Origin: a virus | Virus record (IMG/VR): IMGVR_UViG_3300046501_000163 | Span: 1 to 34,067 of that record | Direction: 5' to 3' (one strand) | Length of the DNA stretch: 34,067 nt | Shown here: one piece after another, positions 3,243 to 11,113 of the stretch | Position numbering within the stretch: the first letter of the stretch is position 1 | Layout of the letters: each line of letters opens with the position of its first letter | Position numbers and translations under genes: made by a program | Notes under the pieces: model-generated | The model's database searches: none | The model's input: only the letters and a program-made list of their open reading frames with translations | What the model was told of the DNA's origin: nothing

Positions 3243-5564
3243 ATGGCAGACAACACGAGCGCCCGGCGTTTAACCAACAAGAAAAACGCCTTCCAGTTCG
3301 CAACGCTCGGCCTGGGCGTCTTCGTATCGGATGGCAAGGTGCCGCTGATCCCCCGCTACAATAAGTGGGATCACGAGATCACCGCCGAAGAGCGCGACGC
3401 GGCTGTCACCGAATATGCCGAGAAGCACGATGGCGCAGAGCCCGCGCATGTCGGCTGCACAAAAGACATCGCCGTCCTCAAGAAATTGTTCCGGCTGTTC
3501 CCCGACGCTGTGCCCTCGATTGCGTGTGGCCCGTCGAAGCTCCTGGTGCTCGACGCCGACGCGAAGGACAACGGCCCTGAATTGCTCGGTGCGCTATTCG
3601 CAGAGAATGGCGGCGTGCCCGCAGGCGTTCCGGTTATCCCGACGCGATCAGGCGGTCAACATCTGATCTTCAGCGACCCCGAAGGCAAGTACACCAACAA
3701 GGCTGGCCTGCTCAAAAAGCAGTACGGGACCGACGTGCGCGGCACAGGCGGCCAATTCGTCGCGCCTGGCTCAATGCGCGTGGATGGCAAGACCTACGGC
3801 ACGAACGACGACAAGCTCAATTTCTTACGCGCGATCCATGCGAATACGATCCCCACTATCCCTGAGTTCATCGTCGAGAAGATCGGCGCTGTCGACCCGT
3901 CGCTGAAGGAAGAGATCGCGCCGACCAAAGAGCGCGAGGTCATCAAGTCCCTTCAAGATGACGACATCACGCCGTTCGAGAACGCGTTCGACGCGGTGCT
4001 GGGCGACTACGATCTCGACAAGCTGAAGGCGAGCAACAAGCACTTCGCCGAACTATACGACAACCCCTCGGATGACTGCTCGACGAACCGCTTTCTCGCC
4101 GCGCGCATGGTCATGACCGAATGGCCGTCGATGCCTGTGCAGGCGCTCTCAATCTTCTTCAGCAATTGGGAAGGCGCTGGCGTCTACACCGACGACAAGC
4201 CGCGCAGCGGAGAGTACGACGACCGCCAGATCGCGCGCGAGTGGCTGAAGAATCAGGGCCTCTCCAAGCAGTCGACCGGCGAAGCGTTCGGCGCTGTCGA
4301 GGAAGACGACGAATACGACCGTGAGATCAGGCAGGACAAGGAGCGCGAAAAGCTCGCAGCCATGAAGGCAGAGGATCTGTTCTTCGCGGGCGAATGGGGC
4401 GCATACAACGAGCCTGACTACATCGTCGAGAACACGTTCACGCCGCAACAGATCGGCATGATCCACGGACCGTCGAACGTCGGCAAGACCTTTACAGTCA
4501 TCCACCTCGGCGAGCGCATCGTCGCAGGCGAGAAGTGGTTCGGTCTCAACGTCGCTCAGGGCGGGGTGCTCTATTGCTTCGGCGAAGGTCATGCGGGCCT
4601 GCGCAACCGTCTCTATGCCTACCGCAAGGTCTACGAAGACCTCGGCCTCGGCATGGTCGTGCGCGGCGGCATCCCGAACCTGGCGCTCAACCTGAAGGCC
4701 GCACGCAAAGCCCTGCGCAAGGCCATCATCGACGCCAACAAGATGTACGCTGAACGCGGCATGTCGCCGGTCAAGGTCGTCTTCCTCGACACCTTCGCCA
4801 AGGCCATCGCTGGCGCGCAGGAAAACGACGTGGCCGCCATTCAGCCGATCCTCAACGCGCTGCGTGAGCTGTGCATTGAGATGGAGGTTTGCATCGTGAT
4901 CGTCCACCACAGCGGCAAGGACACGCTGCTGGGGCCGCGCGGCAGCTCTGCCATCGTGGCTGACGTGGACTTCAACCTCGAAATCCTGAGCCACGCGGAG
5001 GCCAAGAAGCGCAAGCTCAACACGGTGAAGCCGGGCAACCTGGCTATCGTGTCGCCGAAGATGCGCGACAGCGGCAAGGCTGGGGTCCTTCAGTTCAAAT
5101 TGCAGGAAGTCCAGCTCGGCACCAACCGTTGGGGCAACCCGGTCACCAGCATGGCCGTGGTCGAGGGGCTCGACGCCACGCCGGGATCAGATGGCAGCGC
5201 CTTTGGTGCCGCGCCCGAGGATGACGCTGAAGCCCCCACATCCACGGATGCGCTGACGCCGGAGCAGAACCGGAAAGAGCAGGAACAGCGGATCGAGCTT
5301 TGCGCTCGCGTCGCGGCGGCCGTGCAGCAGGCAGGCGTCGACTCTGTTGAAGGGCGCATGGCCTCGGTCGAAGCGGTGCAGGGGCTCGTGCCTGCGCTCG
5401 CCAAGCTCCGGGCCGAGTGTGGTCGCGGCAACTTCGCCAAGGCGATCCGCCGCGTGCTGCTCGACGGTGAGCCAAGCGTCCTACTGCCGAGCGGCGGATG
5501 GCTGCAATATCTGCCAGCGACGGGCCGCCGCAACAGCTCGTTCGCCATCAAACTGAACCGATAA
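3243..5564 (+). CDS. Primase-polymerase / RecA-like replicative helicase fusion
   Basis: A 773-residue replication protein. The N-terminal part (about residues 10-220) looks like a bifunctional primase-polymerase (prim-pol, archaeo-eukaryotic primase fold): LVLDADAKD holds the DxD metal-binding pair (D104, D106), followed by PTRSGGQHLIF and GTDVRGTGGQFVAPGS. The C-terminal part (about 385-620) is a RecA-like hexameric helicase domain (AAA_25/RepA type): Walker A GPSNVGKT at 409-416, Walker B VVFLDTFAK, and the VHHSGKD motif at 554-560. The linker (220-385) is helical and acidic. The protein probably primes and unwinds phage DNA at the repeat-rich region directly downstream. The ATG follows the two hairpins; a terminator lies 20 bases after the stop. 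Confidence 0.85.
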   Translation: MADNTSARRLTNKKNAFQFATLGLGVFVSDGKVPLIPRYNKWDHEITAEERDAAVTEYAEKHDGAEPAHVGCTKDIAVLKKLFRLFPDAVPSIACGPSKLLVLDADAKDNGPELLGALFAENGGVPAGVPVIPTRSGGQHLIFSDPEGKYTNKAGLLKKQYGTDVRGTGGQFVAPGSMRVDGKTYGTNDDKLNFLRAIHANTIPTIPEFIVEKIGAVDPSLKEEIAPTKEREVIKSLQDDDITPFENAFDAVLGDYDLDKLKASNKHFAELYDNPSDDCSTNRFLAARMVMTEWPSMPVQALSIFFSNWEGAGVYTDDKPRSGEYDDRQIAREWLKNQGLSKQSTGEAFGAVEEDDEYDREIRQDKEREKLAAMKAEDLFFAGEWGAYNEPDYIVENTFTPQQIGMIHGPSNVGKTFTVIHLGERIVAGEKWFGLNVAQGGVLYCFGEGHAGLRNRLYAYRKVYEDLGLGMVVRGGIPNLALNLKAARKALRKAIIDANKMYAERGMSPVKVVFLDTFAKAIAGAQENDVAAIQPILNALRELCIEMEVCIVIVHHSGKDTLLGPRGSSAIVADVDFNLEILSHAEAKKRKLNTVKPGNLAIVSPKMRDSGKAGVLQFKLQEVQLGTNRWGNPVTSMAVVEGLDATPGSDGSAFGAAPEDDAEAPTSTDALTPEQNRKEQEQRIELCARVAAAVQQAGVDSVEGRMASVEAVQGLVPALAKLRAECGRGNFAKAIRRVLLDGEPSVLLPSGGWLQYLPATGRRNSSFAIKLNR

Positions 5565-7835: not shown

Positions 7836-7910
7836 TGGAGTGTAGCTCAGTGGTAGAGCAGTGGTCTCCAAAACCGCGTGTCGTAGGTTCGAATCCTACC
7901 TCTTCAGCCA
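7836..7910 (+). tRNA. tRNA-Trp (CCA)
   Basis: A full cloverleaf of 75 bases with encoded CCA. Acceptor TGGAGTG (7836-7842) pairs with CTCTTCA (7900-7906), with one U-U mismatch and one G-U. D-arm GCTC/GAGC; anticodon stem GTGGT/ACCGC; loop CTCCAAA with anticodon CCA at 7868-7870; T-arm GTAGG, TTCGAAT, CCTAC; discriminator G73. CCA anticodon and G73 are the main tryptophan identity elements in bacteria. The U1-A72 end and the mismatch are unusual for tRNA-Trp and suggest a phage-evolved copy. It lies between a terminator and a small gene, so it is probably expressed only by readthrough. Confidence 0.93.
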
Positions 7911-10191: not shown

Positions 10192-10407
10192 TCAGAAGGC
10201 GCGATAATTTACGGGGACGCTATGAATGCGCCCAAGTTCTCGCGCAACTCGCCGCGCGGATGCTTTCGCGCAATAGCTACCGACAAACTGCGCGGGCTTA
10301 AAATCGGGCGCGTCGTCATGCCTGGTATAGGCCGCAAACCTCCCCCGTTCGCAGGGGTCCGGTTGGTATTCCACCCCAATGATGGGGCCGTGAAAGCTTT
10401 CTGGCAT
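10192..10407 (-). CDS. Hypothetical protein (71 aa) behind hammerhead ribozyme A
   Basis: A 71-residue protein with pattern IIGVEYQPDPCERGRFAAYT and a basic C-terminal half (SARRVARELGRIHSVPV). The ATG at 10407 is preceded on the minus strand by the leader GAAAGGATGTAACGCCAA; an alternative ATG in another frame at 10430 lies inside this leader and gives a poorer protein. If hammerhead A cleaves, this mRNA starts with a 5'-hydroxyl end about 50 bases before the start codon. No domain is recognised. Confidence 0.55.
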   Translation of the reverse strand: MPESFHGPIIGVEYQPDPCERGRFAAYTRHDDAPDFKPAQFVGSYCAKASARRVARELGRIHSVPVNYRAF

Positions 10408-10430: not shown

Positions 10431-10482
10431 GGGCTCATCAGTAGCGGCATAACCGCTAGACGCGCGTGCGCGCGTTTCGCCC
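10431..10482 (-). ncRNA. Hammerhead ribozyme A (type II)
   Basis: On the minus strand, 52 bases contain every conserved element of a hammerhead with open stem II: GGGC (10482-10479), GAAA (10478-10475), stem III CGCGC/GCGCG closed by a short loop plus the A15.1-U16.1 pair, cleavage triplet GUC ending at 10459, stem I UAGCGG/CCGCUA with loop UUAUG (10458-10442), CUGAUGA (10441-10435) and GCCC (10434-10431), which pairs with GGGC. Cleavage is expected between 10459 and 10458. The first G is also the last base of the UAG stop codon of the gene before it. Family knowledge: CUGANGA, GAAA and NUH are the catalytic core. Confidence 0.9.
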
Positions 10483-11042
10483 TAGTATGCGGGGGCCATG
10501 TCAGGCCGAGATGCTTCGATATCAGCGGCCATTGCGGCGTTAAGGCGCGACAGAATGTCATCCGCCAATTCGTGCGCGGTATCTTCAAGGTACGAATAGC
10601 AGTCGGATTCGATACCCCAAACGCTTTCGCTTTCGTGTGTGGCGTCGCCATCGCTATCAAGCGCGGTAACCTCTACGCCAACATAGTGCCATTGATCGCT
10701 GCACCATTGGCGCAAGCGGTTGAAATCAGCCATAGCAGCGCGCGCCGCGCGCTCGCCGCGTGTACCTTCGCCATAGGGCGCGGTATCCCAGCCATCGCGC
10801 TTTGCAATGCGCACGGCTTCAGCGAAGTCATAGGTGCGATAACTGCCGCGATCCCAATGCAGGATCATTTCGCCGGGGGCTTTAGGGGGCTTCGAACCCA
10901 TGCCTTCGCGATGGCGTCGCCACTCGCTAACGGGGCCATGCCCGTCGCATTCTTCCCACGGCGCGCCGTGGTCTGAGTCGTGTGGGAAGTTTACGCGGAA
11001 TGTGCGTCCGCCGCGTTCAAACGTATCGTTGTCGAAAAGCAT
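10482..11042 (-). CDS. Conserved hypothetical protein (186 aa) between two hammerheads
   Basis: A 186-residue protein with pattern FRVNFPHDSDHGAPWEECDG, then HGPVSEWRRHREG, GEMILHWDRGSYRTYDFAEA, KRDGWDT and RLRQWCSDQWHYVGVEV, ending with WGIESDCYSYLEDTAHELAD. This is a recognisable arrangement found in uncharacterised phage/plasmid proteins (PWE-DGHG, DRG-R-YDF, GWD, W-YVGV). It is probably cytoplasmic, tryptophan-rich, and might be an anti-defence or host-interaction protein; nothing shows a catalytic role. Start: ATG behind leader GAAAGGATCTTAACGCC. It is the only gene flanked on both sides by hammerhead ribozymes, so its message would be cut free as an RNA of about 630 bases. Confidence 0.7.
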   Translation of the reverse strand: MLFDNDTFERGGRTFRVNFPHDSDHGAPWEECDGHGPVSEWRRHREGMGSKPPKAPGEMILHWDRGSYRTYDFAEAVRIAKRDGWDTAPYGEGTRGERAARAAMADFNRLRQWCSDQWHYVGVEVTALDSDGDATHESESVWGIESDCYSYLEDTAHELADDILSRLNAAMAADIEASRPDMAPAY

Positions 11043-11060: not shown

Positions 11061-11113
11061 GGGCTCATCAGTAGCGGCGTAACCGCTAGACGGCGCGTCG
11101 CGCCGTTTCGCCC
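11061..11113 (-). ncRNA. Hammerhead ribozyme B (type II)
   Basis: On the minus strand, 53 bases: GGGC (11113-11110), GAAA (11109-11106), stem III of 7 pairs including A15.1-U16.1 (ACGGCGC / GCGCCGU around loop GAC), cleavage triplet GUC ending at 11089, stem I UAGCGG/CCGCUA with loop UUACG (11088-11072), CUGAUGA (11071-11065) and GCCC (11064-11061), closing stem II. Cleavage is expected between 11089 and 11088. Compared with copy A, the stem III sequence differs on both sides with pairing kept, while the core is identical. The first G is the last base of the UAG stop of the upstream gene; the downstream ATG at 11042 is 46 bases after the cut. Confidence 0.92.

Follow-up and report, generated by a model that had tools for sequence, protein, structure and literature searches.

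Paired type II hammerhead ribozymes flanking a single gene in a viral genome and their probable role in transcript processing

Gene context

The window analysed here, 34,067 bases in length, is a whole IMG/VR virus record. Its plus strand carries terminase, portal, protease and major head genes, while a short run of closely packed genes, all on the minus strand, is located between a primase/helicase-type gene and the terminase gene. Following the minus strand, this run includes a 417-aa gene (phrog_7247; 12601-11348), a 69-aa gene (phrog_9027; 11322-11113), a 186-aa gene (phrog_11104; 11042-10482, ATG at 11042) and a 71-aa gene for which no family match was obtained (10407-10192, ATG at 10407). 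The last gene of the run is a small ORF lying between the 71-aa gene and a terminator-like hairpin of 13 bp with a T-rich tail (10012-9984 (-)). The number of terminator-like sites in this region is not above chance, and this one has the longest stem among them. Since a search of the minus strand for sigma-70-like promoters found none, co-transcription of the run is something we infer. Close relatives of the phage were found neither by megablast against GenBank phages nor by scans with the single 186-aa and 417-aa proteins.

Two hammerhead-like elements occupy successive gaps of this run. Copy B (11113-11061 (-)) takes up the interval from the 69-aa to the 186-aa gene and copy A (10482-10431 (-)) that from the 186-aa to the 71-aa gene, so that the gene at 10482-11042 is flanked on both sides, on its own strand, in a clustered gene-flanking arrangement. 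In both copies stem II begins with the final G of the upstream gene's UAG stop, and on its 3' side it passes directly into the Shine-Dalgarno-like sequence GAAAGGAT of the next gene (11059-11052 (-), just 3' of copy B and ahead of the ATG at 11042; 10425-10418 (-), just 3' of copy A and ahead of the ATG at 10407). No hammerhead is present at the junction of the 417-aa and 69-aa genes, and the operon would therefore be cut only in part.

Structure and detection of the two copies

Copy A is a complete type II hammerhead ribozyme with an open stem II and an intact core. It reads, 5' to 3' on the minus strand, GGGC-GAA-ACGCGC(GCAC)GCGCGU-C^-UAGCGG(UUAUG)CCGCUA-CUGAUGA-GCCC. Stem II has 4 bp (10482-10479/10434-10431) and is followed by the core GAA (10478-10476), a stem III of 6 bp counting A15.1-U16.1 (10475-10470/10465-10460), the cleavage triplet GUC (10461-10459), a 6-bp stem I with the pentaloop UUAUG (10458-10453/10447-10442) and CUGAUGA (10441-10435). 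The predicted cut, 10459|10458, directly follows the GUC and is the position which the earlier note had given. Copy B is built in the same way, with stem II at 11113-11110/11064-11061, the core GAA at 11109-11107, a stem III of 7 bp at 11106-11100/11096-11090, a predicted cut at 11089|11088, stem I with the pentaloop UUACG at 11088-11083/11077-11072 and CUGAUGA at 11071-11065. The order of elements in both is that of type II: the 5' strand of stem II, GAA, a closed stem III, GUC and the cut, and then a closed stem I, CUGAUGA and the 3' strand of stem II. The invariant core (CUGAUGA, GAAA and the triplet NUH, here GUC) is present in A and B. The minimum free energy fold of the isolated RNA is exactly this three-way junction for each copy, with a folding z of -2.8 for copy A and an unremarkable -1.5 for copy B. 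Within a 270-nt context the computed thermodynamic pairing drops to 0.19-0.33 for stem II, which counts against the two copies acting as ribozymes.

The full motif occurs twice in the window and not once in 600 dinucleotide shuffles, even at loose settings; CUGAUGA alone is ordinary there (five occurrences against 3.8 expected). The Rfam model Hammerhead_II (RF02276) scores copy A at 32.9 bits and copy B at 33.4 bits (E about 2e-4 in 1.7 kb), both just short of its gathering cut-off of 37 bits, which is a score limit set by the curators and not a structural feature of the family. We therefore also used a covariance model, R1, made from 35 other phage hammerheads from which the window copies had been left out. 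This gave 70.3 bits (E 6.8e-18) for copy A and 64.8 bits (E 2.5e-16) for copy B, and its scan of the window returned these two and no third copy. A candidate at 1972-1919 (-), with 14.5 bits, lacks CUGAUGA and is not confirmed by R1; we attribute it to chance. The proposal of a second hammerhead at 10431-10482 is thus borne out by the core, the stems, the shuffles and the independent model.

Over the 32 nt of stem I and core the two copies are 97% identical, and the near identity through stem I and CUGAUGA noted earlier holds, with the lone change located at loop position 4. All four bases are freely used there by family members (12 C, 11 U, 7 G and 7 A, n=37). A reading of the U to C change as a compensation within a pseudoknot was rejected, given this freedom and the poor match of short loops to the tail. 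The copies share the ribozyme and the Shine-Dalgarno sequence as a single unit of about 85 nt. Stem III had been described as carrying compensatory changes. It does differ between the copies with its pairing intact, but by one inserted base pair and not by a series of base substitutions, and because this is a single event, two copies alone provide thin evidence of covariation; the argument pointed in the right direction and carried little weight. That the elements are a selected RNA structure and not a repeated coding motif is supported by their location between predicted genes, where they touch only the last base of a stop codon.

Covariation in the wider phage family

Viral contigs were scanned with a sequence-only pattern consisting of GGCGAAAC, GTC and CTGATGAGCC with free gaps between them, which matched at least 179 places in at least 119 contig stretches. 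The pattern fixes neither stem I nor outer stem III, and the two were present together in 149 of the 179 matches listed (83%) compared to 0.3% in letter-shuffled sequence; the 83% is slightly favoured by the choice of the best-pairing GTC where several were possible, though not on the scale of the difference. Covariation was examined in 35 short-loop members, with a stem I of the same length as in the window copies, picked for stem I and III pairing. In their 16-pair structure 99.3% of cells are paired, against 68.6% in shuffles and 28-43% with slid partners, a figure that is partly built in by the selection of members, which does not apply to the variety of pairs. Double-sided changes number 159 against 47 in shuffles, and both sides change in ten pairs of stems I and III and in the outer stem II pair. 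The latter, which was not used for selection, is A-U in 22 members, G-C in 7, U-A in 2, G-U in 1 and unpaired in 3. The pattern itself dictates the three inner pairs of stem II and the initial two of stem III, and the covariation concerns the rest. The earlier note had proposed an alignment of related phages as a check on all three stems, and family-wide this shows covariation in stem I, outer stem III and the outer pair of stem II.

The same was observed at a single orthologous junction. In 12 contigs among the matches listed, a hammerhead immediately precedes one and the same short gene, whose product starts V/MTPKFR. Nine distinct combinations of stems I and III occur there, with exchanges between C-G and G-C, between G-C and A-U and among C-G, U-A and A-U; pairs 1-4 of stem I and 1-6 of stem III are formed in every case, and the core is fixed. 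The stems have been rewritten in these related phages with their pairing kept.

The short-loop form has a stem I of 6 bp and a pentaloop with U first and mostly G last, and the Rfam type II model under-detects phage elements of this subclass. Across the family, 55 of 125 members have at least four Watson-Crick pairs between loop I and the 3' tail, in contrast to 14 with swapped tails. The shortest loops, such as those of the window copies, have little complementarity to the 3' tail, and this pseudoknot, a tertiary contact which is common though not universal in type II and would give fast cleavage, is not convincing for them. This counts against the view that A and B act as ribozymes.

Position in viral contigs and arrays

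Position was analysed for 136 distinct viral copies with enough flanking sequence, among the matches listed. An ORF stop lies at most 45 nt before stem II in 127 of these, the commonest distance being 0, and a start codon lies at most 75 nt after CUGAUGA in 133, mostly at 25-35 nt. Stop, start and Shine-Dalgarno motif are found together in 94 of the 136 (69%), compared to 7% of random places and 6% on the opposite strand. Type II hammerheads take the same junction position in at least about 100 viral contigs among the matches listed. At least 34 contigs include two or more copies with a median spacing of 656 nt, about one gene, and among the matches listed no contig has copies on both strands. 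Whole-record Rfam searches of 30 mostly multi-copy records, chosen for having many, found up to 11 copies per record.

The richest arrays, in L011, L023, L036, L077, L098, L116, L117 and relatives, have 7-11 type II hammerheads each, on one strand. They precede short genes mostly without assigned function, one of which encodes a DUF7178 protein. A different arrangement is seen in L059 (172-298(+)), L075 and L079, where back-to-back doublets are 10-14 nt apart with no intervening gene, and where a double cut would excise an RNA of 69 nt.

The flanked gene

The 186-aa protein is a member of phrog_11104 (E 1.8e-44), a family of mostly acidic proteins, and has a net charge of -16. Its AlphaFold model is confident (mean pLDDT 94), and comparison of the predicted fold to the PDB found no counterpart. 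An ArdA-like anti-restriction role was considered in view of the acidity of the protein and the ardA precedent, and was set aside, as neither its sequence nor its fold gave a match in Pfam, NCBIfam, PADLOC or the PDB. Phages of Pseudomonas, Xanthomonas, Achromobacter, Brevundimonas, Xylophilus and Clavibacter have distant homologues, as do 43 IMG/VR records. When these records were searched whole with the type I, II and III Rfam models, only two hammerheads were found, both adjoining the homologue. In L171 (3491-4498 (+)) a type II element of 56 bits is located directly upstream of the homologue (3935-4498), following the stop at 3847 of a 118-aa ORF, in a geometry like that of the window. In L180 (3962-4609 (+)) a type I-like element, with 20.3 bits against a cut-off of 34, starts right after the stop of the homologue at 4552. 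The record with the closest homologue, L139, has no hammerhead.

Most phages with a homologue lack a ribozyme at this place, which counts against the processing role proposed below for the pair in the window, and the ribozyme is sporadic and not conserved with the phrog_11104 gene. Where hammerheads are present in such phages they sit at this gene, an association suggested by two cases. Searching in the other direction, for homologues among 122 stretches that bear hammerheads, gave no convincing case. The phrog_11104 junctions of three phages carry type II elements on both sides (the window), a type II element (L171) and a type I-like element (L180). Different hammerhead types might have been recruited independently to these junctions, as if the mRNA had to be freed from its neighbours, an idea which we regard as tentative and somewhat doubtful.

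Proposed mechanism and alternatives

After cleavage by a hammerhead the 5' fragment bears a cyclic phosphate and the 3' fragment a 5'-OH. The structure of A and B, their family membership, their position and the covariation of the family make it probable that both are active type II hammerheads which cut a minus-strand operon RNA into single-gene mRNA with hairpin ends; cleavage of the two copies, operon transcription and the effect on expression are what we infer from these observations. Transcribed inside the operon, each copy would cut itself after GUC (11089|11088 and 10459|10458), between a stop codon and the next ribosome-binding site. The 5' fragment of each cut would end in a stem III hairpin just past the upstream stop codon, and the 3' fragment of copy B would open with a stem I hairpin lying 46 nt ahead of the following start codon (11088 to 11042). 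The double cut would free a 630-nt mRNA for the 186-aa protein alone, bearing the stem I hairpin of copy B and a 5'-OH at its 5' end and the stem III hairpin of copy A and a cyclic phosphate at its 3' end. The likely benefit would be to uncouple the stability, decay and translation of neighbouring genes.

Other roles can be envisaged for cleaving ribozymes at these junctions. They might regulate the downstream gene, in that cleavage, or a factor controlling it, would alter access to the adjoining Shine-Dalgarno sequence in the manner of a slow or ligand-gated switch. The 3' shoulders of A and B do run into GAAAGGAT, regulated cleavage has been suggested for some phage hammerheads (PMC3088659), and in a halovirus the hammerhead stands 13 nt ahead of a start codon, a 5' end having been mapped close to where it cuts (PMC3088659). 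We nevertheless think regulation unlikely: the occurrence of many copies in arrays, with varied stems and loops and before unrelated genes, looks more like an all-purpose processing device than a dedicated sensor, and an aptamer-like insertion is absent. Far less probable is a re-ligation or circularisation of the excised RNA to give a circular mRNA of the 186-aa gene. Near-identical hammerheads bracketing one gene would suit it, as would product ends that are chemically ligatable by general hammerhead chemistry and the 69-nt RNAs that back-to-back doublets in some relatives would release. Against this, the type II cut parts stem III from stem I, such that re-ligation needs both fragments together, and no spliced or circular products were found from clustered phage hammerheads (PMC3088659).

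It could also be argued that the elements do not cleave at all. If the 32-bp segment were a recombination linker or the remnant of a small duplication, its hammerhead likeness would be inherited and unused, and this would account for the common unit of about 85 nt and for the recurrence of exactly this stem I hairpin in three further phages, where the adjacent genes are unrelated. A linker would, however, keep its sequence and not its pairing, whereas stems I and III covary strongly across relatives and at the orthologous junction, and those of A and B differ in stem III by a whole base pair; a DNA-level origin is accordingly very improbable. Least probable of all are plain, non-catalytic intergenic hairpins serving as 3'-end stabilisers or weak terminators. 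Stem III is strong, G+C-rich and directly after the stop codon, as such a hairpin would be, but no U-run follows it, and GAA, GUC, CUGAUGA and stems I and II would all be superfluous. Cleavage into gene-length mRNA thus remains our preferred reading.

Comparison with known systems

Type II hammerheads were described by Perreault et al. 2011, together with their occurrence in prophages and in clusters flanking single genes (PMC3088659). Of the 18 consensus hammerheads assayed in that study, 14 cleaved in vitro, those of A. tumefaciens also in E. coli, and it was suggested that clustered copies divide long phage transcripts into mRNAs of gene length (PMC3088659). A 2017 review adds that prokaryotic hammerheads often flank ORFs of small unknown proteins (PMC6155905). 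The cutting of phage transcripts by hammerheads has thus already been proposed, and cleavage shown, and the window adds a probable instance. Its copies resemble RF02276 (PMC3088659) in their core, open stem II, closed stems I and III, GUC, intergenic position in phage DNA and clustering around single genes, and differ in their short-loop form, unconvincing pseudoknot and score of 33 of 37 bits. The prophage clusters of Agrobacterium tumefaciens (which flank ardA and another gene), Azorhizobium caulinodans and Clostridium scindens likewise have several close hammerheads in a phage-type transcript (PMC3088659); for these, in vitro cleavage was demonstrated, and for those of A. tumefaciens cleavage in E. 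coli as well, whereas the window copies are known from sequence and flank phrog_11104 instead of ardA. The HHphage of haloviruses HF1/HF2 is also located just upstream of the start of an early gene, with an mRNA 5' end near the cut, but it has a variant core, is from an archaeal virus and was described as one copy (PMC3088659). Theta ribozymes of gut phages are also small and self-cleaving; they are described as HDV-like in fold and as tied to suppressor-tRNA recoding and not to gene junctions (PMC10879173).

The benefit of self-cleaving ribozymes to phages was still an open question in 2011. New here are the quantified junction geometry, the short-loop subclass under-scored by Rfam and the possible link to phrog_11104, for none of which was a report found in the literature searched, which took in a minority of subscription journals. 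The position statistics render the idea of one mRNA per gene directly testable by end-mapping RNA-seq.

Two minor observations concern the stem I hairpin and a tRNA. A search in which one loop base was left free found the 17-nt stem I hairpin of the window with CUGAUGA in L136 (13225-13173(-)), L137 (1187-1247(+)) and L138 (1916-1861(-)). Stems II and III are different there yet paired, the flanking genes are unrelated and R1 gives 51-56 bits. The sharing could be an exchange of ribozyme halves or a coincidence; common descent of the exactly shared hairpin was considered and set aside, as it is not distinguishable from coincidence. Elsewhere in the window, a tRNA-Trp with the anticodon CCA is located at 7836-7910 (+).
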